Shown piece after piece: positions 42,323-55,754 of a DNA stretch of 64,000 bases. This DNA comes from Verrucomicrobiota bacterium. GTDB lineage: Bacteria > Verrucomicrobiota > Verrucomicrobiia > Verrucomicrobiales > Akkermansiaceae. Below the pieces are notes generated by a model. The model saw only the letters and a program-made list of their open reading frames with translations, made no database searches and had not been told where the DNA came from. The translations under genes were made by a program, and so were the position numbers. How positions within the stretch are numbered: position 1 is the first letter of the stretch; each line of letters begins with the position of its first letter. The stretch spans positions 1 to 64,000 of the forward strand of contig JAURPJ010000057.1 of the NCBI GenBank assembly GCA_030835305.1, in the 5' to 3' direction.

Positions 42323-43501
42323 TCAACGGTTTAAATGGTCTTTACGGTAGACCGTTGGCGAGACTCCTTCAACCCGAATGAAGACCTTGTAAAAGTGATC
42401 GGCATCACGAAATCCGGCATCCATCGCAACATCCTTCATGGGAACATCGGTCTCGCTCAAGCGCCTCTTCGCCCGCTCCAATCTCAGACGCGTGATCTCA
42501 CCGGCAATCGTCCGGCCCAGAGACTCTCGAAATTTCCTTTCGAGACCGCGTCGATTGGTCGCGGCAGCCTGAACGACATCACGCACCTCAATACGACGAT
42601 GGCTGTTTTCGGCGATGAATCTCAACGCCTTGGAAACAAGCGGATCATCCGCAACATAGAGATCAGTCGAATCACGGGGAACAAGGGCAACCGGACGGAT
42701 CAATCGCACTTTGGGATCGATCTCCTCCCCACTCATCAGGCGATCCAACATGGCCGCCGCCTGATAGCCAATCTGTTCGAACCCCATGTCGATACTCGTC
42801 AGGCTCGGCGAGGGTGATTCACAAATCAGAGGTTCATTGGCGGTGCTTACAATTGAAACATCCTGCGAAATATGCAGCCCGCGGGATTGACAAATATCAA
42901 CGAGATAGCGCGCGAAGAGATCACTGCAAACCAACACGCCGATTGGCAACTCCCAGGTCGTAACCCAATCTTCAATTCCGGAGACAAATTGCTCCCAACC
43001 CCCGGCGCTGCGCTCCACTCCCGTTCTTGAAAAATAGTGGGAATTGCAGAAGAAACCCGATTCAGCCAGCTTAGCGCAAAACCCATCATTTTGAGACCTG
43101 GCATCGATGTCGCGTACGAATCCCAAGTGTCCAAAATTGCGCAAGCCTCTTCCCAAGAGATGGTCGGCCCCAATTTCACCCGTCCGGCGATAGTCCGGAA
43201 AAACCCCATGGATTCCTTCGGCCGGCGTGTTTAGCCAAACATTCACCAAAGGGGTTCCCGTCTTTTTCGCGGACCGCGCAAGGGAAGCGGTGGCCCGCGC
43301 AATCACCCCATCAAGAGGAGCCACGCCCTTGTTTCGTTCAAGGACCTTATCAATCGCTGGGTGAATCCGACAATCCCATCCCGCCTCGTCCGCATACTTT
43401 TGACACCCGGCGTATACTTCCAGGTGATGCTTGAAACCCCAATCCATCTCCAGCGAGACGGCCACCCGACGTCGTCGTTGTTTTGAGAAGTTCGTCAACA
43501 C
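42323..43501 (-). CDS. XylR-like transcriptional regulator (LacI-type sensor plus AraC HTH)
   Basis: This 392-residue regulator has a periplasmic-binding-fold sensor (about 10-275), with typical LacI/XylR pieces such as GVIARATASLARSAKKTGTPLVNVW, DHLLGRGLRNFGHLGFV and ISQDVSIVSTANEPLICE. The C-terminal AraC double helix-turn-helix covers about 285-390: NSHRRIEVRDVVQAAATNRRGLERKFRE (in part), MKDVAMDAGFRDADHFYKVF and SPTVYRK. XylR-type proteins bind a sugar and activate catabolic genes. It lies just upstream of the DUF1549/1501/1592/1552 operon on the same strand and divergently from the esterase gene at 43654, both plausible targets. Confidence 0.93.
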   Translation of the reverse strand: MLTNFSKQRRRRVAVSLEMDWGFKHHLEVYAGCQKYADEAGWDCRIHPAIDKVLERNKGVAPLDGVIARATASLARSAKKTGTPLVNVWLNTPAEGIHGVFPDYRRTGEIGADHLLGRGLRNFGHLGFVRDIDARSQNDGFCAKLAESGFFCNSHYFSRTGVERSAGGWEQFVSGIEDWVTTWELPIGVLVCSDLFARYLVDICQSRGLHISQDVSIVSTANEPLICESPSPSLTSIDMGFEQIGYQAAAMLDRLMSGEEIDPKVRLIRPVALVPRDSTDLYVADDPLVSKALRFIAENSHRRIEVRDVVQAAATNRRGLERKFRESLGRTIAGEITRLRLERAKRRLSETDVPMKDVAMDAGFRDADHFYKVFIRVEGVSPTVYRKDHLNR

Positions 43502-44968: not shown

Positions 44969-47900
44969 TTACTTTGGCTTCCCGCCACCGCTTTTTCGCA
45001 TCTTGTCTCCAAGTCTAACACGCCCGCTGAACCGCTTGTGGAAGCCAAGCTTCCCGTAAAGCTCCAACTTCTCATCCATCAACTTCTGGTCGAATGGCCT
45101 CTCCGTCAGACGAGCTTCCAAATTTTGCAAAGCCAACCCGAAGAGTTTCTGTTCCTTGAGAACATCATACTCCAACTGTCGAAAATCTTTTGAACGCTGA
45201 TCCTCCCAACGCCGAACCTGACGAAGAGCACGACGAGCGCCTTTGATATTCCTGGCCTTGAGGAACATGCGCCCCTCAAAAAGGGCGAGAGCGGCCAACT
45301 GCTGACGCCGGGTTGTCATCTCCTTCTGCTTTGATGCCGCTTCTCTTCTCTCCTCCAGCGAGGCCTCCTCAGCTTCGGTTCTTGCCCCAAAGTAGGCCGC
45401 CACCTCCTGCCCCTTCAACTGGCTCCGGATTTTTTTAAGGTGAATCTGCAAAGCCTTCAACCAACCTTTCTTCACCCCATCGGTGGCCAATCGAATTTCA
45501 GCAACAGTGAGAAGAAGCTCCACGTTTTTTGGACGTTGCTTCAATAATTCCCCGAGGAGTTCGTCCCTCTTCTTAAGAATTTTCTTATCCTTGGTTTTTT
45601 TGTTTGCCTTTAGAAAAGCGAGACTGCGGTTAAAAAGATCATCCTCCAAATCTTCGAGCTGTGACTTCTTTTGATCGAGTGAAACCGGTTCGGCCTTTTG
45701 GTTTGCAACCGCTCCAAATTCCTCCCCCGGATTGCACTCGACCCGAATCTCAAGAAGATCAACCTTATTGCCACTACTCTGCGTCAACTTGAAGCGACCA
45801 CTGAAGTAATCCGCTCCTGCATTGTGCTTGGCCATGGAAGCCAGATCCGAACCACCAATCATGAGAGTGTTGTTTCGCCCGGCCATCAGGCGCAGAGATC
45901 CCGCCATGCGCCCTCTCACAACGGCACGATGGTTTTCGAAAAGAGAAAGCTTGCGCGGTTTCTCAAGCTTGACCGAATAGTTGAGCGGACGATTCTCTTC
46001 GGCCTTCAGCAATGACCGCTCCGGACTATGGAGCACCCGGTAAAAGGTGGTCCTCCCCTTGGGCAGCTCGACCCGCGCGTCGCGGGAATCCCCGCCCACA
46101 TAAAGTCGTTTTCCGGATTCGTGATAGGCCGTGATCATGGAACCGGAAACCTCGGCGTCGTAGCGACGACCCGATGAGAGCTCGATTTTAGTTAGCTTGT
46201 CGACCGCAACCTCAAAGGTTTGGCGCAGTAGCATGGGCGCAACCGCCTTTCTTTCACGGGGACCGGCGGGAAAAGCGTTCCGCTGATCGGAGGAGAGAAA
46301 TTCGGTCTTCGCGGGCATCTCTGAAAAATGAGCCCGGGTAATCTGACCTTCGCCCGAAACCTCCTCATCACTCGCAGCAATCACTTGAAACGGGACATGC
46401 CGGTCGTTGGGATGAAAAACGATGTGCTCCTGCCTTGAAGTCAGCCCGAAGAATTCGAAGTCCACCTCGACCCGCGTCTTACCCACAGAGAAGAACGGCT
46501 GGTGAATTGCGAACTCCACCGTTTTCCCTGGCGCCACCGGAACGAGCACTTCTTTTTCTTCACCCGACTCCATACGCAGATAATCGAGGGAATTGTAGGA
46601 ATAGTGACTGAAGTCAGCGACCAGTGTCACGGTGTGCAGCATCAGGGATCGCGCCAAAGGATCCCCGGAATCACGCCGCAAACGAATCTTCACATGACTG
46701 ACATTTGCAGGAACCTGAAAGAAGCGGCGGTAGGTTCTGCCGGATTCGATCTCCAGCCCGTATCCACCACGATGCTTCAAATGAGCTCCGGTTTTCTCAC
46801 CTCGCACGATAGTTATGGGAATCCGGACCAGGGGGCCTGCCCCGGGCGACCCGGGGAGCTTGGCGTGAATTTCCGCATAAAGCGGCTCATCCGGGCGGGA
46901 CACGGGAACATCAAGTATGGGACGTATCGTAATACTTCCATTGGCAAGACGGGCATACCCCGGGATTTTCACCCACGGTTGGGTTGCAGTAAAAATCAGA
47001 TCATCTTCAAGGTTGAATTTCTCGGGCGCGGTCACCTTCGCCGGAAACTTCGGAGAAAGATCAAAGCGGACCTCCCTTTTACCCACCGGAATGTCTCCGC
47101 GGAGATACAGCCCGGGGCCCGAACCAAAGGTATTCCCCTTGGTCTCGACGTCGTAGAAATGATCCCAGGCGGGCTGCTTTTGATTGGCCTGCAGGTGAGC
47201 CCACGCCGGGAGTGCCTGCACGAGCCCGGCACCCTGGGCAAACACTTCAACCCCCTTGACGAAGCGCGCGCTATTCATGAGTGCGGCACGAATGCGAGCC
47301 GGTGAATAGGGCACATCGCTTTGCTTTGCGGCGCTCACAAGAAGGGCACCCAGTCCGGCGACCGAAGGCGACGACATGGAGGTCCCGTGGTAACGTTGTG
47401 ATTTACGAAGTTCATCGTATGCCAGGGAAGCATGCGCTCCACCCGGACCCATGACATCCACTCCCAAATCACCATTGCGAGCCGGACCGCGGGCAGAAAA
47501 CTGGTAGGCGGTATTGGGCCCCTCGATTGTTTGGCTGTACAAAACCTTCGACATCTCATCGGAGACATAAGCACCCACCCCGATAATGGAACTGGCCTCG
47601 CCTCCGGGACTGCCAAGCGTGGACAAGGCGGGCCCGCTGTTTCCTGCTGAGACAAAAGCGGTCACCCCGTATTTTTCGGTAAGCAAGTTATACATGCGTG
47701 CGGTGTCGTTTTTCCCGTCCTGATATTGACTTGCGCCACCCCAACTGGCGTTCATCAGGTCCGCACCATATTGCGCACAGGCGGCGACTCCTCTCATTTC
47801 GCCGAGGCCGGAAGAGCTTCCTCGAAGCCTAGTATCTCCGATCTTAATGGAGAGAATTTTTGCTCCGGGCGCAACACCATCACGATGTGGCTCTTTCGGA

Positions 47901-48805
47901 AAGTGAGCCGAAGCAATCGACGCAACATGGCTGCCATGCGACCCACTCACAGTGACAATCGAAAGAAGATTCCCCTTCTCATAAACCTGCACGGCAAAGG
48001 TTGCCGCTTCCTCCTGACTGAGCCTGCCATACTCTCCTGCAATCCCGAAGGGGCGCAGATCCTTTTCATCACGAAGATCTCCATCTTCATCCGTATCAAT
48101 CAGGACATGGAATTCCCTGCCATCCGACCAGACCACACAGTCGTAAACCGGCCCTGGATCGGACGAGGCAAACTTGTCTTCAAGTGACTGAAGAATCTTC
48201 TCGCGGGCAATTTGATCCCGATCTTTCAAGGTCAAATCGACCTTTGCTTTTTGAAATGCCTTTCTTCCGCCCTTCTCTTCGGAAGTCTCGTTCTTTTTCG
48301 CCCGTTGTTCTCTGATGCCCGCGAGTTCCCGCTCCCATTTTTCGGCCCGAAGACGGGCTATACGCCGGTTGACTCCGATGGTGAAGAGATCACTGGCCCG
48401 CTTCATTCCCAGATGAAACTTTTTTGAAGGGTTCTTGAGCTTGGCAGGAAGGGTGAGCTTGCGACCGGTAAGGCCTTCCAGCTTCCCGTCCTTGTCAACA
48501 TCAGCAAGGTGCGAGGTGTCGACATCTCCGGAACCAGTGGCATCGATGACATCGACCAACTTGCGCTCACCCGTCGAGGTAAGTTGCAACCCCGAGGCTG
48601 CAGGATCAACACCGGTATCAAAAACCGCGATCACGACTCCGCGTCCATCAAACTCAGGGTGCTTCTTGAGAAACTCCAGCACCCCGGTTTCACGTTTGGG
48701 AATGAGACCTTCCTGAAGATTCTTAAGGGATGGGGAGTTTTGCCCATTCACAAGCGCGAGAGAAGAAAGCGAAACAGTAAAGGTGGCGGCAAGACGTCTA
48801 TTCAT
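44969..48805 (-). CDS. Secreted tripeptidyl-peptidase-II-like subtilase
   Basis: This 1278-residue S8 protease has a signal peptide (to about LALVNG). The catalytic triad is D63 (VFDTGVDP), H290 (GSHGSHVASI) and S476 (HGTSMSSP), with oxyanion N389 (AGNSGP). The Asp-His spacing (227) and His-Ser spacing (186) match tripeptidyl peptidase II, in which a large insert separates Asp and His. Further TPPII-type pieces are LVDVIDATGSGDVDTS, DPGPVYDCVVWSDG, DTDEDGDL, GNLLSIVTVSG and GVAPGAKILSIKIGDTRL. The length is close to the eukaryotic enzyme (about 1250). The C-terminal third is helical and Lys/Glu-rich with TPR-like spacing. Unlike the cytosolic eukaryotic enzyme it appears exported. Confidence 0.93.
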   Translation of the reverse strand: MNRRLAATFTVSLSSLALVNGQNSPSLKNLQEGLIPKRETGVLEFLKKHPEFDGRGVVIAVFDTGVDPAASGLQLTSTGERKLVDVIDATGSGDVDTSHLADVDKDGKLEGLTGRKLTLPAKLKNPSKKFHLGMKRASDLFTIGVNRRIARLRAEKWERELAGIREQRAKKNETSEEKGGRKAFQKAKVDLTLKDRDQIAREKILQSLEDKFASSDPGPVYDCVVWSDGREFHVLIDTDEDGDLRDEKDLRPFGIAGEYGRLSQEEAATFAVQVYEKGNLLSIVTVSGSHGSHVASIASAHFPKEPHRDGVAPGAKILSIKIGDTRLRGSSSGLGEMRGVAACAQYGADLMNASWGGASQYQDGKNDTARMYNLLTEKYGVTAFVSAGNSGPALSTLGSPGGEASSIIGVGAYVSDEMSKVLYSQTIEGPNTAYQFSARGPARNGDLGVDVMGPGGAHASLAYDELRKSQRYHGTSMSSPSVAGLGALLVSAAKQSDVPYSPARIRAALMNSARFVKGVEVFAQGAGLVQALPAWAHLQANQKQPAWDHFYDVETKGNTFGSGPGLYLRGDIPVGKREVRFDLSPKFPAKVTAPEKFNLEDDLIFTATQPWVKIPGYARLANGSITIRPILDVPVSRPDEPLYAEIHAKLPGSPGAGPLVRIPITIVRGEKTGAHLKHRGGYGLEIESGRTYRRFFQVPANVSHVKIRLRRDSGDPLARSLMLHTVTLVADFSHYSYNSLDYLRMESGEEKEVLVPVAPGKTVEFAIHQPFFSVGKTRVEVDFEFFGLTSRQEHIVFHPNDRHVPFQVIAASDEEVSGEGQITRAHFSEMPAKTEFLSSDQRNAFPAGPRERKAVAPMLLRQTFEVAVDKLTKIELSSGRRYDAEVSGSMITAYHESGKRLYVGGDSRDARVELPKGRTTFYRVLHSPERSLLKAEENRPLNYSVKLEKPRKLSLFENHRAVVRGRMAGSLRLMAGRNNTLMIGGSDLASMAKHNAGADYFSGRFKLTQSSGNKVDLLEIRVECNPGEEFGAVANQKAEPVSLDQKKSQLEDLEDDLFNRSLAFLKANKKTKDKKILKKRDELLGELLKQRPKNVELLLTVAEIRLATDGVKKGWLKALQIHLKKIRSQLKGQEVAAYFGARTEAEEASLEERREAASKQKEMTTRRQQLAALALFEGRMFLKARNIKGARRALRQVRRWEDQRSKDFRQLEYDVLKEQKLFGLALQNLEARLTERPFDQKLMDEKLELYGKLGFHKRFSGRVRLGDKMRKSGGGKPK

Positions 48806-48996
48806 GATTGCTTTGATGATAACACTCTACGGCCGACTAGAGCAGAGGAATTCCAGTTTACCAACGAATAAGACCTTCCCCACTTGGGATCGCGACGTAA
48901 AAAGCGAGGATTTAGCGGAAATAAGAGAGGACTTGTGCGTGTATTCTGCTAGCCTGCGGGACTGATCAACATCAGCGGTTGCTCGGGTTTGATACC

Positions 48997-51729
48997 ATGC
49001 GATACGCCATCGTCTCAGACATTCATGCCAACATCCGGGCGTGGGAAGCAGTGCTTGCGGATATCCGCTCGCAACAGATCGACGTGATCGTGTGTCTCGG
49101 CGATGTTGTGGGATACGGCCCTAAGCCAGCCGAGGTGTTGGAGGCAGTGAGATCGGTCACTGATCACTTTGTCCTCGGAAACCACGATGCAGCAGCGGTA
49201 GGAATGATTGACTATTCCATTTTCAACAACCACGCCCGACAGGCCATCGAGTGGACCATGACGGAGCTTTCACCGGACGCTCAACAGTTTCTGTTGTCAG
49301 TTCCGTTGGCAATCGAGGCCGGTGAGATCCATTTCGTGCACGCGGAAATCGCCGAGCCCGGCCGCTTCGACTACATCGACAATGTCGAGATCGCGAAAGA
49401 GAACTTTGCGGCCACCGAACACTTCGTGACCTTTATTGGGCACACCCACCTTCCAAAGATGTTCGAGCTTTCAGCGGACGGATCGGTTCGTGAACTTCTT
49501 GATACCAACAGCACACTCGATCCGGAAAAACGCTATATCATTAACGTAGGTTCGGTTGGAGAACCGAGGAACCCCGATGACCTCAGATCACGCTATGCCG
49601 TCTATGATGCCGAAAAACGTGAAATCGATTTTCGGCATGTGGAGTTTGATATTGTGGCCTACCGGCAGGACCTGGAATCAACCACTCTTGCACTCCGCCC
49701 ATACTTCCTCCGGGTTTATGAACAGGTTGTTGAGGGACGAGAGGTTATCGTTTCGAATGGCGGCAGCCTGGTCGACATGCAGGTCTCGCACGACTCGGCT
49801 GCGCTTGTGGATCTTCGCCAAGTATCCACGATGGCTCAATTGGGACCTTCAAGCTCCATGCTCGCGAGCGCCCGCCCGTCCCGCGCCCCAATCTTTGCGC
49901 TGGGGGCAGCAGCGATCCTAACTGTAGCGGCCTTGATCTTCTGGTTAACGAGAGAGAATTATCCCTCGCCATCGGAAAACGGAAAAACTGTGATCACGGC
50001 TAAAGATGAGCCACCTGCTGGGAAAAAACTAACGCCCGAGCCCAAAAAACGGAGTGAGAGCAAGGTTGACGACCCACGCATGGCCGCTTCAAATACGCAC
50101 AAAAAGCCAAAACCTCAAAAAGAAACTCCCCAACCAAAGGATCCCGATCCTATTCCGGAAAAGCCAAAGGAAGAGCCTGAGAAACCCGGGCCGAAAATCG
50201 CCGAAAAAGACAGCGAGGTTAAAATGGAATCTGCGTGGTGGCGGATGGACAAGGAGAGCGCCGGAAGCGCACTCGTCGATGCCTCGGGGCAAATCAAATT
50301 GCTCCCGCTACGCTCCGGCAAGGGAACACGCCCCGTTGCACCAGACCCGGTCCCCCTCAATCAAGCCGAGAACGACTCCGCCTTAATTTTAGGAATTTGG
50401 CAGGAGGAGAAAGTTGATAACATCTTTGCATTGAATGCCGGGAACTCTTTCACTTTCGAGGGTTGGTTCATTGCCGACAGGCTACGCCGCCCGGTCTTTC
50501 TCCTCGGCACTAGAACCGGGAAAGGAGAAGATAACCGGGGATGGCACCTCGACTTACGCCCACCCGCCCGCGGAAGCAGGGACGACCAGATGGCCTTCTT
50601 TTACGACTCAGGCACCAAACGGGTCCAGGCTCTCGCTGAAGCGGTCAAAATTGGCGATAAAGAACCACACCACTTTGCGGTTGTCTGGAATCATGAAGCC
50701 AACAAAGACGAGGGAGAAATGAAGCTCTTTCTCGACGGAGCAGAAGTTGCGGCCGCCAAGGTTGCCCACTCGGACATTCCCGGCGAGCAAATCAACCCCC
50801 TCCGCCTCGGAGGTCCGGGCAATAATACTCCCCTCGCCCTTGATGAACTCCGCTTCACCCGCAAAGCCCTGCAATCCCACGAATTCCTTCTCAAGACTCC
50901 CATCCTTGGAGTCACGATGATCAAGAGCAAAGCCACGGATCGGGACAGCTGGGCCATCCCTGAAAACTGGGAGGGAGGCCAACTTCCGGGACCTGACGAC
51001 AACGTCATCATCGGTGAAGGCCTGAGCGTGCAAGTTCAGGATTCACCGCCCGAACCTTATTCAGGCTCCCTCATCCTGAAGCGAGAATCCACCCTCACCT
51101 TGTGGGCCATCAGAAGCCTAACCGCACTTCCCAAGGCTCCTTCTCTCTTGGAAATGCATCAGGGTGCCAAGCTCATCCTGCGAAGCGGCGAAGCAAGCTT
51201 CGGCCCCATCAACATGGTGGAGGACGCCGCAATTTTTGGTGGCGACTCTACCAGCGGCCAAGGAAGCATTCGATACTTCAACGGCGAAATCAGAGGCGCC
51301 GGCAGGCTCACACTGAATGGGATAAATCGAAACCAATTTCATCTCAAAGCCGCCAACACTTTCACCGGAGGACTCGTGGCCTACTCAACCCAAAACCAGC
51401 CCTTTTTTCTCCTCGCCGCTGCCAACTCGGCATTCGGAACCGGAGATGTTGCCATCAAGGCAAACGCCTCGTTGATCATTGAACCCAATTTGGACGACAC
51501 CATCGCCAATACAGCCACCTTATCCCTCGAGGGATCCGGCAGCATCAGGGTCAATAGTGAAGGCGCGGACCCGAACACACTCTATAAGCTCGTTCTGAAT
51601 TCTGACGAGACGGTGAGCAGCTTCATGGTTGATGGACAGGATCAGGGAGAAGGCGAATTCTCAGTGGCTACCCACCCCTTTATCTTCGGCTCCGGCAAGC
51701 TTATCGTAAAACGCTCTGATGATCAGTAA
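48997..51729 (+). CDS. Metallophosphoesterase / membrane anchor / LamG / beta-solenoid fusion
   Basis: ATG 48997 begins directly with the phosphoesterase strand MRYAIVSDIHANIRAW. The roughly 910-residue protein starts with a YfcE/calcineurin-like phosphodiesterase with a full metal set (SDIHAN, GDVVGYGP, GNHD, GHTHLPK). A single membrane helix lies near 297-319 (IFALGAAAILTVAALIFWL), then a Lys/Pro/Glu-rich linker (325-405). A LamG-type domain follows (about 440-640: FTFEGWFIADRLRRPVFLLG). Last is an autotransporter-like beta-solenoid with KAANTFTGGLVAYSTQ and LIIEPNLDDTIANTATLSLEG. With no signal peptide, the enzyme half is predicted cytoplasmic and the C-terminus periplasmic. This could relay an outside binding event, but that is inference. 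It overlaps the next gene by 11 bp. Confidence 0.85.
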   Translation: MRYAIVSDIHANIRAWEAVLADIRSQQIDVIVCLGDVVGYGPKPAEVLEAVRSVTDHFVLGNHDAAAVGMIDYSIFNNHARQAIEWTMTELSPDAQQFLLSVPLAIEAGEIHFVHAEIAEPGRFDYIDNVEIAKENFAATEHFVTFIGHTHLPKMFELSADGSVRELLDTNSTLDPEKRYIINVGSVGEPRNPDDLRSRYAVYDAEKREIDFRHVEFDIVAYRQDLESTTLALRPYFLRVYEQVVEGREVIVSNGGSLVDMQVSHDSAALVDLRQVSTMAQLGPSSSMLASARPSRAPIFALGAAAILTVAALIFWLTRENYPSPSENGKTVITAKDEPPAGKKLTPEPKKRSESKVDDPRMAASNTHKKPKPQKETPQPKDPDPIPEKPKEEPEKPGPKIAEKDSEVKMESAWWRMDKESAGSALVDASGQIKLLPLRSGKGTRPVAPDPVPLNQAENDSALILGIWQEEKVDNIFALNAGNSFTFEGWFIADRLRRPVFLLGTRTGKGEDNRGWHLDLRPPARGSRDDQMAFFYDSGTKRVQALAEAVKIGDKEPHHFAVVWNHEANKDEGEMKLFLDGAEVAAAKVAHSDIPGEQINPLRLGGPGNNTPLALDELRFTRKALQSHEFLLKTPILGVTMIKSKATDRDSWAIPENWEGGQLPGPDDNVIIGEGLSVQVQDSPPEPYSGSLILKRESTLTLWAIRSLTALPKAPSLLEMHQGAKLILRSGEASFGPINMVEDAAIFGGDSTSGQGSIRYFNGEIRGAGRLTLNGINRNQFHLKAANTFTGGLVAYSTQNQPFFLLAAANSAFGTGDVAIKANASLIIEPNLDDTIANTATLSLEGSGSIRVNSEGADPNTLYKLVLNSDETVSSFMVDGQDQGEGEFSVATHPFIFGSGKLIVKRSDDQ

Positions 51730-53398
51730 TCCTCTCAAGAAACACCTCTTGCGAGTCCTGCCATTTTTGTTAGTCGGGATTTCCAATTGCCAGACTAAAT
51801 TACCAAAGATAGTCGACACCCACGTTCACCTCTGGCACCTCGACCGACCCGAGGGCATCTACTGGATACCAAAAGACAATAAACATCTCTACCGATCGTT
51901 CATGCCGAAGGATCACGAGATCGTCGCCAAACAGAATGGAGTGGATGGCGTCGTCCTCGTACAGGCCGGGCAACACCTGCCCGACAATCAATGGAATCTC
52001 GATATCACTGCGCACAACAAAGCACTCTATCGCGGAGTTGTCGGGAACCTTTCCCAAGTGATTGGAACCAAAAAATTCCAACCGCTTTTTGAAAAACTCT
52101 GCCAAGATGACCGTTACGTGGGCTATCGCATTTCTGGGCGAACCAAAGCAACTCTCACCGAAGAATTCTACCGGGATCTCAAGGAAACCGCCCTCCATGG
52201 AAAAACCGTCGATATCCTCATTGGCAGCTACACCCTCGAAGAAGCTGCCAGTATCGCGGCCCGCGTTCCCAATCTCAAAGTCATCATTGATCATTTCGGA
52301 GGAGTAACCCTCGATGACAAACCACTCGACCCTGTCTGGGTGGAGAAATTCCGTGCGGTGGCGAAACACCCAAATGTCTTTTGCAAAGTGTCTGCTCTTT
52401 TCGGGCGAGTAAAATCCCAACCGGCACCTCTCGATCTGGCATTCTATCAACCCATTCTTGATCTCACCTTGGAGTGCTTCGGCGAAGATCGGATTGTCTT
52501 TGGCAGCGATTGGCCGGTGACCAGGACAACCGCAGATTACGCTGCTGTTCTGAAACTTACCCGTACCTACTTTGACACAAAGGATCCGGCGACTTCCCGC
52601 AAACTTTTCTCAGAAAACGCCGCGAAATTTTATGGTCTGGAAAAAATGGAAATTGAACGAGGCAACAAGCAACTCCCCCTCCCCGGAGATGCCTTCCGCA
52701 TCAATGGGCGGGACGCCTTTGTCATTCTCCCCAAGAGTCAGGAGGGCAAGATCCCATGGGTTTGGTATGCGCCCACCTTGCCCGGACTTCCTGCGAAGTC
52801 GGAAGTCTGGATGTTTGAACGATTCCTCGCCGAGGGTATTGCCATCGCCGGAATTGACGTTGGAGAATCCTACGGAAGTCCCGACGGCCGAAAAGCCTTC
52901 AGCGAACTCTACGCACATCTCACAACCCAACGAAATTTCACGAGCAAACCCTGCCTGCTGGCACGAAGCCGCGGAGGCCTGATGCTATACAACTGGGCCG
53001 CAGAAAACTCAGACAAGTTGGGCGGCGTCGCCGGAATCTATCCCGTCTGTAACATCGAAAGCTATCCCGGCATCGCCCGCGCCGCCGGGGCTTACCAAAT
53101 GACTCCGGAGAATTTAAAAGAGGCGCTTCCACGGAACAACCCCATCGAACGCCTCAAGCATCTCGCTGAAGCTCGTGTCCCGATTTTTCATATTCAGGGA
53201 GACAGCGACAAAGTGGTCCCTCACGAAAAAAACACCGCCCTCCTGATCCAACGCTATCGGGCCCTCGGTGGTCCTGCCGAATTTGAACTGATCAAAGGCC
53301 AAGGCCACAACATGTGGCGCGGATGGTTTCAATCTGAAAGCCTGACGCAATTTACGATCGATCGCGCACTGGGAAAACCACTCCCAGCCAAAAAGTGA
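51719..53398 (+). CDS. Amidohydrolase_2 fused to alpha/beta hydrolase, secreted
   Basis: This 559-residue exported protein has a lipoprotein-like N-terminus (LPFLLVGISNC). The N-terminal half (about 28-310) is an amidohydrolase_2 TIM barrel similar to the gene at 33605 (VDTHVHLWHLDRPEGIYWIP, VIIDHFGG, VFCKVSALFG, IVFGSDWPVT). The C-terminal half (about 335-555) is an alpha/beta hydrolase with nucleophile elbow ARSRGG (S417), Asp in GDSDKVVP and His in GQGHNMW. The chain could carry out two successive hydrolyses, for example lactone and ester. The start overlaps the preceding gene by 11 bp, so translation is probably coupled. Confidence 0.87.
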   Translation: MISNPLKKHLLRVLPFLLVGISNCQTKLPKIVDTHVHLWHLDRPEGIYWIPKDNKHLYRSFMPKDHEIVAKQNGVDGVVLVQAGQHLPDNQWNLDITAHNKALYRGVVGNLSQVIGTKKFQPLFEKLCQDDRYVGYRISGRTKATLTEEFYRDLKETALHGKTVDILIGSYTLEEAASIAARVPNLKVIIDHFGGVTLDDKPLDPVWVEKFRAVAKHPNVFCKVSALFGRVKSQPAPLDLAFYQPILDLTLECFGEDRIVFGSDWPVTRTTADYAAVLKLTRTYFDTKDPATSRKLFSENAAKFYGLEKMEIERGNKQLPLPGDAFRINGRDAFVILPKSQEGKIPWVWYAPTLPGLPAKSEVWMFERFLAEGIAIAGIDVGESYGSPDGRKAFSELYAHLTTQRNFTSKPCLLARSRGGLMLYNWAAENSDKLGGVAGIYPVCNIESYPGIARAAGAYQMTPENLKEALPRNNPIERLKHLAEARVPIFHIQGDSDKVVPHEKNTALLIQRYRALGGPAEFELIKGQGHNMWRGWFQSESLTQFTIDRALGKPLPAKK

Positions 53399-53501: not shown

Positions 53502-55754
53502 CTACTGATGCAGCGATAGGAGGCGCTTGGATTCCTTGATCAGGAAGTCGATATCCATGAATGGATCGGCCGAAATGTCAGACCAGAGCATGCGCCCCTT
53601 GCCATCAAGAACGAAGGTTCCGTGAAGTGGCTGGTCCTCAAAATCGTCATGCGCTGTGTATTGCTTGAAGATGTTCTTGGCAGCATCAGAAACAATGGGA
53701 AACGGAATGTCACCCTTGGTGTAGTTGTCCTGAGAGTCCTTAAGATTCGCAACGTTGTCTGTTGATATTGCGAGAATCGGGAGCCCCGCTTTTTCAAAGT
53801 CAGAGTATCGATCCGCCATTGCGGTCAGTTGCTCGGTGCAATGAAGACATCCGGCGCCCAGGTAAAAGACGAGAATCACCGGCTTGCCGCGATACTCGGC
53901 AAGCGAAACATTTTTCTGATGCTGATCAGGCAGACTAAATCCGGGCGCCACCGGCGGCGTCCAATGGAGCGGTCCAAGTTCGTCGAGCTGCGGACGCGGC
54001 AAAAGATCGTCGGCAGGCTGGTGTGCAATCCGCCAATCAAGGGGATAACCAAGCTCCTTTGCAATTGGGGCAAGCCGGGCAAAAACCGGCGATTCGATCT
54101 CCAATTCAGATCCATAATTGCGCAGATCCTCGAAACCGGTCTTCCAGGCGGGATCGTCCCTTTTCGCGTGATAAAGCGCATGGATCGCCTTGGCTAGCGG
54201 AAGGGTTCGCTTGTCCTTTTTCTCAATCTGCTTCCTGGCGATCTCAGCCGCCTTCTCGTGATCTCCATACGCCAAATACCGCAGGACCGGGGTTTGCTGC
54301 GAGGGTCGCTTTGAGAGAGCCTCTGTAGCGGTCTTGAAGTCCCCGTTCATCGCGGCGAGGTAGCCCTTCAACTCGCCAACAACATTCTCAAATTTCCTGA
54401 CATTCTTCTGAAATTGATCGTGGGCCTTCTTTTCAGCTGACTTGATCTCCTTCTCATTTTTCTTCTCCTTCTCGGCTTTCTCCCGGGCCCTCGTTTTGGC
54501 CTGTTCCTGGTCGGCTTTGACCTTCGCCAGATGTGATTCGACCTCCTCGATGGTCTTTCTTAATTTAACTTGATGCCCAAGATTCGCTTGCGCGACTCCA
54601 ATGAGCCGTAATCGGGAAAGGTCGTCCTCAGGCTTCGGGAGCACCTCCAACCACGGCGAGCGGGCAGTCTCGAGCGCCTGCTGCCAGAGTTCGGCCTTTT
54701 CAAGATAGTCGATCAAAGCAAGACGACCGTATCGCGCGGAGCCCCGTCCGGGATTATTGAGTTTGGGATGGCGGGGATTCCCTAGAAGGGATTTCGCCAT
54801 GTCGATGCTGGCCCGCACCATTCCGAGGTGGGAAAAATTCCGCGATAGCCACTCGTTGTTGTGGGCATAGTTGTGAATCTGATCCGGCAACAGAAACCAT
54901 TTCATCATGTGCTTGTGGTCAACCCGTGCCGACGCCTGCTGCTGCCATACCGCATCCTGATAACGCTTGGCCTTGGAATAAATGTGCCCCGGCATGTGCC
55001 ACATGTGCGCGATGCCCGGAGCAGTTTGCCCCAGTCGTGCCGCTGAATCGAGTGCCTGCTCATGTTTGCGGTTATCCCAAAGGTGGATCGCGTAGTGGTG
55101 CGCAGGATGGTTGGGGTTCTTTGCGAAAATCTGCTCCAGAATGGCATCCAGCCCCACATGACTCGTAATGGGAATGCCCTTACGGCTAAACTGCCAACGC
55201 CGACAAACCAGCAGGGCCTTGGCCTCGAGATCATCGGGATAATTTAAAATCAGATCCTCATAAGCCCGGATAAAATTCTTCCGGCGCTTGGTGACATCTT
55301 TCTCTTTTTGGTCGTCATGGTAGGCGATTTCCGCATCAAGATAGGCCCGCTCATGCTCGCTGATTTTGAAGTCCTCTTTTTTCAAAAGCTCACCCGCCTT
55401 CGCGATGAATTCCTTGGCTCGCTTTTCATTTTCGTAATTGGTCTGAGACAAGCCCCAATAAGCCATCGCGCAACTCGAATCGTGAGCGAGAATAGCCCGG
55501 AACGATCTTTCGGCTTCATAATACCAAAACCCATGAAGCTGCCCCAGTCCCTGATCAAAATAAGCCTGCCCCTGATCCCAACTGGTAGTAATGGGCAGAT
55601 GAACATTACTAGTTGTGCCCATCAACGGACCTTCCTGACGCGGGCCTTCATTAAAAGCATGGCCATTGTGGGAATGCCCCTCTTTAATATCTTGATTCGG
55701 CTCTTGCGCCACCAAATAGGTCGCGAAGAAAGGAAGGGTGAAAAGTCTCTTCAT
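53502..55754 (-). CDS. TPR protein with C-terminal redoxin domain
   Basis: This 750-residue exported protein has a short signal peptide (to about YLVAQ). A long tetratricopeptide-type helical region follows (WDQGQAYFDQGLGQLHGFWY, HDSSCAMAYWGLSQTNYENE, WHMPGHIYSKAKRYQDAVWQ), with many conserved His and Trp. A Lys/Glu coiled segment spans about 395-440. The last 160 residues are an AhpC/TSA-type redoxin with a C636-LH-C639 active site (GAGCLHC) and LPILAISTDN. The CxxC in place of the usual peroxidatic PxxxTxxC suggests a disulfide reductase-type role. It is probably periplasmic. The sulfatase at 55806 diverges from it with a 51-bp gap. Confidence 0.83.
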   Translation of the reverse strand: MKRLFTLPFFATYLVAQEPNQDIKEGHSHNGHAFNEGPRQEGPLMGTTSNVHLPITTSWDQGQAYFDQGLGQLHGFWYYEAERSFRAILAHDSSCAMAYWGLSQTNYENEKRAKEFIAKAGELLKKEDFKISEHERAYLDAEIAYHDDQKEKDVTKRRKNFIRAYEDLILNYPDDLEAKALLVCRRWQFSRKGIPITSHVGLDAILEQIFAKNPNHPAHHYAIHLWDNRKHEQALDSAARLGQTAPGIAHMWHMPGHIYSKAKRYQDAVWQQQASARVDHKHMMKWFLLPDQIHNYAHNNEWLSRNFSHLGMVRASIDMAKSLLGNPRHPKLNNPGRGSARYGRLALIDYLEKAELWQQALETARSPWLEVLPKPEDDLSRLRLIGVAQANLGHQVKLRKTIEEVESHLAKVKADQEQAKTRAREKAEKEKKNEKEIKSAEKKAHDQFQKNVRKFENVVGELKGYLAAMNGDFKTATEALSKRPSQQTPVLRYLAYGDHEKAAEIARKQIEKKDKRTLPLAKAIHALYHAKRDDPAWKTGFEDLRNYGSELEIESPVFARLAPIAKELGYPLDWRIAHQPADDLLPRPQLDELGPLHWTPPVAPGFSLPDQHQKNVSLAEYRGKPVILVFYLGAGCLHCTEQLTAMADRYSDFEKAGLPILAISTDNVANLKDSQDNYTKGDIPFPIVSDAAKNIFKQYTAHDDFEDQPLHGTFVLDGKGRMLWSDISADPFMDIDFLIKESKRLLSLHQ

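Follow-up and report, generated by a model that had tools for sequence, protein, structure and literature searches.

A membrane-anchored metallophosphoesterase of Verrucomicrobiota as a candidate receptor-type enzyme

Can a phosphoesterase, a single membrane helix and a lectin-like module that share one reading frame work together as a receptor, and if so, what would the enzyme act on? This is the question raised by the gene P0001 of a Verrucomicrobiota bacterium (family Akkermansiaceae). The gene lies in the window analysed here, which is the whole stretch of 64,000 nucleotides taken from contig JAURPJ010000057.1. A first-pass annotation of this DNA had described a one-protein, receptor-like layout; the domains, the helix and the structural model agree with that description, and P0001 is likely a receptor. 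Its architecture, its topology and its family are well supported. As to the activity of the enzyme, protein dephosphorylation is favoured, with nucleotide hydrolysis close behind.

Layout and topology of P0001

P0001 is one intact open reading frame that runs from an ATG to a stop codon and encodes 910 aa; its coordinates had been placed correctly in the first-pass annotation (Table 1). An in-frame TTG is present upstream at 48979, and the methionine of MRYAIVSD is the start common to all aligned orthologues.

Table 1. Coordinates of P0001, its parts and the following gene (positions in the window; aa, residues of P0001)
Feature	Position	Strand	Basis
Membrane-anchored metallophosphoesterase gene P0001	48997..51729	+	Intact ORF; full-length orthologues 52-94% identical
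Cytoplasmic metallophosphoesterase domain, aa 1-240, complete metal-ligand motifs	48997..49716	+	PF12850/PF00149; motif table; Z 28 to 3rqz, Z 24 to SapH 3qfm; 51% of columns invariant in orthologues
Juxtamembrane segment, aa 241-298, partly low-confidence	49717..49890	+	AlphaFold pLDDT <50 at 247-267 and 284-306
Single transmembrane helix, aa 299-317	49891..49947	+	Hydropathy; helix 299-318 in model; same position in orthologues
Pro/Lys/Glu-rich disordered linker, aa 319-408	49951..50220	+	Composition; pLDDT <50; 1% invariant columns
LamG/ConA-like jelly roll, aa 409-635	50221..50901	+	PF13385, 47 bits; Z about 18-19 to lectin-type jelly rolls
Predicted beta-helix, aa 636-910	50902..51726	+	AlphaFold of this part alone: pLDDT 92, pTM 0.90; beta-helix neighbours, Z 9-13
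Next gene, Amidohydro_2 (L-fucono-1,5-lactonase-like) and alpha/beta-hydrolase part	51719..53398	+	Pfam; NCBIfam (the latter below its cut-off)

The N-terminal part matches two Pfam families, Metallophos_2 (PF12850) over residues 1-207 with 68.2 bits (cut-off 27) and Metallophos (PF00149) over residues 1-153 with 56.4 bits (cut-off 21.5). The metal motifs of P0001 are complete (SDIH, GD, GNHD, H115 and GHTH in the motif table), and in the alignment the ligand motifs D-x-H, GD, GNH, H and GHxH are invariant across orthologues. By Pfam and motif content, the domain is assigned to the metallophosphoesterase (calcineurin-like) superfamily, and the annotation of an N-terminal phosphodiesterase with a full set of metal motifs is upheld. 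The label YfcE-like that came with it is loose: the yfcE family model TIGR00040 (NCBIfam) gives 31.6 bits against a cut-off of 56.25, and the closest proteins by structure are 3rqz (Z 28 over 225 residues, 2.0 Å) and SapH (3qfm; Z 24 over 228 residues, 2.5 Å). To our knowledge, 3rqz has not been assayed.

No hydrophobic segment is present at the N terminus, where the model has a catalytic beta strand from residue 2, in agreement with the earlier view that the protein has no signal peptide. The only hydrophobic segment by hydropathy is the helix listed in Table 1, which had been placed at about 297-319. The 89 residues that follow it include 18 P, 17 K and 12 E, as expected of the charged, proline-bearing linker annotated at first, and residues 318-408 have a pLDDT below 50 in the AlphaFold model. 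When the two flanks of the helix are compared in 65 distinct members of the family, the N-terminal flank has the higher net charge in 58 and the lower in three, and the two are equal in four; in P0001 itself the bias is mild. This bias supports a predicted single-pass N-in topology in which the enzyme is inside and the other part lies across the membrane. The same arrangement had been proposed at first, and the single helix and the charge bias both predict it.

Verrucomicrobia are diderm, and an OmpA-family gene lies within the window; the outer part should therefore lie in the periplasm and not at the cell surface. The first-pass term "outside" holds in the sense of across the membrane, but it would mean periplasmic in a diderm unless the linker crosses the wall. 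A linker of 90 residues could reach through the wall. For the adhesive role once suggested for the outside part no support was found.

The outer part consists of two folded regions. Laminin_G_3 (PF13385) matches residues 478-629 with 47.1 bits against a cut-off of 27.6, and the lectin-type jelly rolls resembling residues 409-635 include domain 4 of the arabinanase AbnA. The LamG part named in the annotation is thus recovered by profile as well as by structure. On the structural model, residues 409-635 are assigned to the LamG/ConA-like lectin-type fold, and carbohydrate binding, which does not follow from a common fold, is putative. Toxin-binding domains also occur among the fold matches; they have just the jelly-roll fold in common with P0001 and do not point to toxicity. 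The second region, residues 636-910, had been described as autotransporter-like repeats forming a beta-solenoid. Folded alone, it gives a confident AlphaFold model with a predicted beta-helix fold, and its structural neighbours are beta-helices, namely tapirin (Z 12.8), HxuA (Z 11.8), pectate lyases and pertactin; Foldseek alone returned no significant match for this model. The solenoid stands on this model, but the family assignment falls short, as the autotransporter-repeat model TIGR02601 (NCBIfam) gives 12.7 bits against a cut-off of 19.85 (E 0.08).

A phylum-wide family with exchanged outer parts

The first-pass annotation knew of no described example of this architecture, and literature searches, which were not exhaustive, found no description of the family or of the architecture. 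The architecture is not isolated, however, and has relatives throughout the phylum. A related phosphoesterase is present in 280 of the 289 genomes of the order; most of these proteins are soluble and of about 245 residues, and fewer are long. In a profile search of 388 genomes of the phylum, homologues occur in 311. By a reading of the match list, the long form is present in at least 70 of those genomes, commonly with 480-560 residues, and most long members have a helix near residue 280-330. The viral copies are soluble forms only (about 245-260 aa).

The outer modules recognised by Pfam are LamG, PA14 and F5/8C; one member (L064) has an outer part without a Pfam match, and further outer parts resemble jelly rolls by eye only. 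To judge from the sequences, members of the family retain the anchor and swap the outer part. LamG modules related to that of P0001 gave 21 matches in the 289 genomes of the order, of which 19 (the window's own included) lie in frames with a member of the enzyme family; thus, enzyme and LamG mostly travel together. Of the remaining two, one lies on a protein that lacks the enzyme (G054) and the other in a frame that starts inside a LamG on a truncated contig (G159:C427).

In a tree of 81 domains, anchored members and soluble paralogues are split by a branch of length 0.89 with a support of 100. The anchored side also has a few short members, with three rows labelled soluble (L105, L126 and L068). 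The row of L105 is a faulty translation with a branch length of 10, L126 belongs to a short locus, and at L068 a genuine loss is possible.

Three members (L057:211-3042, L063:1687-4551 and L054:6363-9260) have lost metal ligands and have kept the helix and LamG. In these, DIH is changed to DIQ, DIY or EIY and GNHD to GDCD or GDFD, and GHxH is absent; their genomes also hold an intact member. With the metal site lost and the helix and outer part kept, they are like the pseudo-enzymes of signalling families. Two further members (L146:2984-5710 and L147:3412-6824) adjoin each other in the same orientation.

Candidate substrates of the inner enzyme

Tentatively, and on a nearly level balance, P0001 is read here as a single-pass N-in receptor-type enzyme, a phosphatase that opposes transmembrane Hanks kinases. 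The outer part in the periplasm would bind a polysaccharide or an envelope component, and binding outside would cluster, position or otherwise alter the activity of the inner enzyme. At a further remove, the enzyme might dephosphorylate the protein targets of the organism's transmembrane Hanks-type kinases, and kinases and phosphatases of like layout would then be opposing receptors. Because the segments on either side of the helix are flexible, clustering or localisation is favoured over a rigid push-rod mechanism, and the flexibility of the juxtamembrane segment argues against simple conformational coupling.

The layout with its model, the charge bias, the split between anchored and soluble members in the tree, the exchanged outer modules, the loss of metal sites and the loyalty of LamG to the enzyme count for the receptor-phosphatase reading, as do three observations on kinases. 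The first is a protein of 1367 aa (L047:5563-9666, in G023:C95) that carries the phosphoesterase, a Hanks kinase, a helix at 596 and LamG in a single chain. Its kinase domain scores 150 bits against a cut-off of 31.7 and has the Lys, HRD and DFG motifs, and by its sequence the chain possibly joins opposing enzyme types in one protein. The second is that Hanks kinases occur in each of the 53 genomes sampled that have the anchored form and in 21 of 30 chosen as being without it (Fisher p 4e-5), a weak comparison between hand-picked sets of unlike lineage and genome size, with a p value that ignores relatedness. The third is that six of the window genome's own Hanks kinases are built like P0001, with a domain inside, a helix and a domain outside.

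The confounding of this co-occurrence by lineage and genome size counts against the receptor-phosphatase reading. So does the fusion being a single case, since no second kinase fusion is listed in the 75 genomes of its bacterial family, and so does the finding that kinase genes show no clear enrichment near family loci (the 52 loci comprise 434 ORFs, the receptors counted, and gave three matches besides the fusion). The function of SapH and a missing signature motif, both considered below, weigh on the same side. The broader proposal is that Verrucomicrobiota have phylum-wide receptor phosphatases of the metallophosphoesterase fold, with exchangeable periplasmic sensors, dead members and a single-chain kinase-phosphatase receptor, which oppose Hanks kinases; it is conceivable, with the balance tilted somewhat against it.

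In a receptor built alike, the inner enzyme could instead hydrolyse a nucleotide signal (Ap4A, or linear or cyclic nucleotides), and an outside cue would alter a second-messenger pool. This alternative is less likely than not but a serious contender, with several points in its favour. Among assayed proteins, SapH, called an asymmetric Ap4A hydrolase and phosphodiesterase in its PDB title, is the nearest by structure (Z 24, 23% identity). Matches to the YfcE model and to models of ApaH, the symmetrical Ap4A hydrolase, are weak and below cut-off (in NCBIfam, PRK00166 with 34.5 of 176 bits and TIGR00668 with 14.1 of 222.85 bits). The soluble paralogue is kept in three genomes of one genus (G324, G335 and G350) in which Hanks kinases were not detected. 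In addition, GDxxDRG, the signature of PPP-family protein phosphatases (COG0639; PMC2887360), is absent from P0001, which has GDVVGYGP there.

The myxobacterial Pph2, cited where that paper discusses altered motifs, is reported to dephosphorylate phosphopeptides (PMC2887360). With this precedent set against the missing signature, the fold and motifs are compatible with a protein phosphatase and a nucleotide hydrolase alike. A nucleotide signal fits less well with the chain in which an active-looking Hanks kinase is fused to the enzyme, with the anchored form being seen only in genomes that have Hanks kinases (all 53 sampled), and with an identity between P0001 and SapH of just 23-25%. The kinase fusion suggests protein dephosphorylation no less than cyclic-nucleotide hydrolysis, and the latter is only one possibility among several for the P0001 enzyme.

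It is unlikely that P0001 is a constitutive, membrane-tethered enzyme whose outer part fixes its position at the wall or an envelope polysaccharide and passes no signal. A tether would suit the long disordered linker and the flexible juxtamembrane segment, and the outer part is less conserved than the enzyme (in orthologues, 31% of the columns are invariant in LamG, 21% in the beta-helix and 1% in the linker, against 51% in the enzyme). Moreover, two members (L048:7134-8267 and L049:4875-5945) end in the membrane helix, the outer part being absent, which suggests that anchoring alone can suffice. The exchange of outer modules and the loss of metal sites in members that keep the outer part, however, suit sensing better than tethering.

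That parts of unlike function sit in a single frame might reflect a gene-fusion or assembly error joining two ORFs, the error against which the first-pass annotation had cautioned, but its probability is negligible, as it is refuted by independent full-length orthologues with the entire architecture in eleven other assemblies and by an unbroken frame in which the synonymous changes against the nearest relative are spread across every domain. Relatives are encoded at nine loci of other assemblies, and more were found by searching the 289 genomes of the order.

Known systems and genomic setting

SapH (Spr1479 of Streptococcus) and 3rqz of Sphaerobacter thermophilus are like P0001 over the full metallophosphoesterase domain; in contrast to P0001, they are stand-alone chains of about 240-270 residues that have neither a helix nor an outer part, and are 23-37% identical to it. 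The transmembrane Hanks-type Ser/Thr kinases of Verrucomicrobiota and Planctomycetota resemble P0001 in having an inside catalytic domain, one helix and exchangeable outer domains, but they are kinases and not phosphoesterases, and the outer domains of those in the window genome seem to be of another kind (by eye, C-type-lectin-like, WD40-like and HEAT-like). Hanks kinases that carry outer sensor domains are well documented in bacteria, and their counterparts are usually thought to be PP2C phosphatases. PstP-like PP2C phosphatases and eukaryotic receptor protein tyrosine phosphatases are single-pass proteins with the phosphatase inside and an outer part. Their catalytic folds (PPM and PTP, respectively) are unrelated to that of P0001, in which protein-phosphatase activity is putative. 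PPP-family phosphatases share the calcineurin-like superfamily and the GNH motif with P0001 and differ from it in the GDxxDRG signature. Receptor enzymes whose outer domains can be exchanged have been described; the use of this catalytic fold in a receptor role at this scale was not found described.

A phylum-wide family of metallophosphoesterase receptors with dead and kinase-fused members would give the Verrucomicrobiota, which abound in soils, seas and guts, one more class of receptor. If the enzyme acts on nucleotides, P0001 would be a transmembrane sensor acting on the nucleotide pool. The family could serve as a test system, with one soluble paralogue, many anchored members and three natural inactive ones.

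The next gene overlaps P0001 by 11 bases and is possibly co-translated with it. The same overlap is found in L006, L007, L008, L009 and L013, and is absent in L010, L073, L074, L083 and L071. A fixed operon partner was rejected, as the overlap is kept in the nearest orthologues only and no neighbour is conserved over the wider family. The best NCBIfam model for the next gene, below its cut-off, is L-fucono-1,5-lactonase. Near P0001 there are also two sulfatases, a sialic-acid-esterase-like protein, an AraC-type regulator and an aldose epimerase, and the orthologue L071 adjoins a GH95 glycosidase. These neighbours make a sulfated or fucosylated polysaccharide a sensible first candidate for the putative ligand, but such genes are common in these genomes.

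The product of the overlapping gene has a hydrophobic N-terminus resembling a signal peptide, which would place it outside the cytoplasm. On the other side of P0001, and divergent from it, a 1278-aa subtilase with tripeptidyl-peptidase II-type domains is encoded at 44969-48805, and the gene at 42323-43501 encodes an AraC-type regulator with a periplasmic-binding-protein-like domain. A 750-aa protein with a C-terminal peroxiredoxin/redoxin domain, encoded at 53502-55754, is found near the receptor gene in several orthologues.
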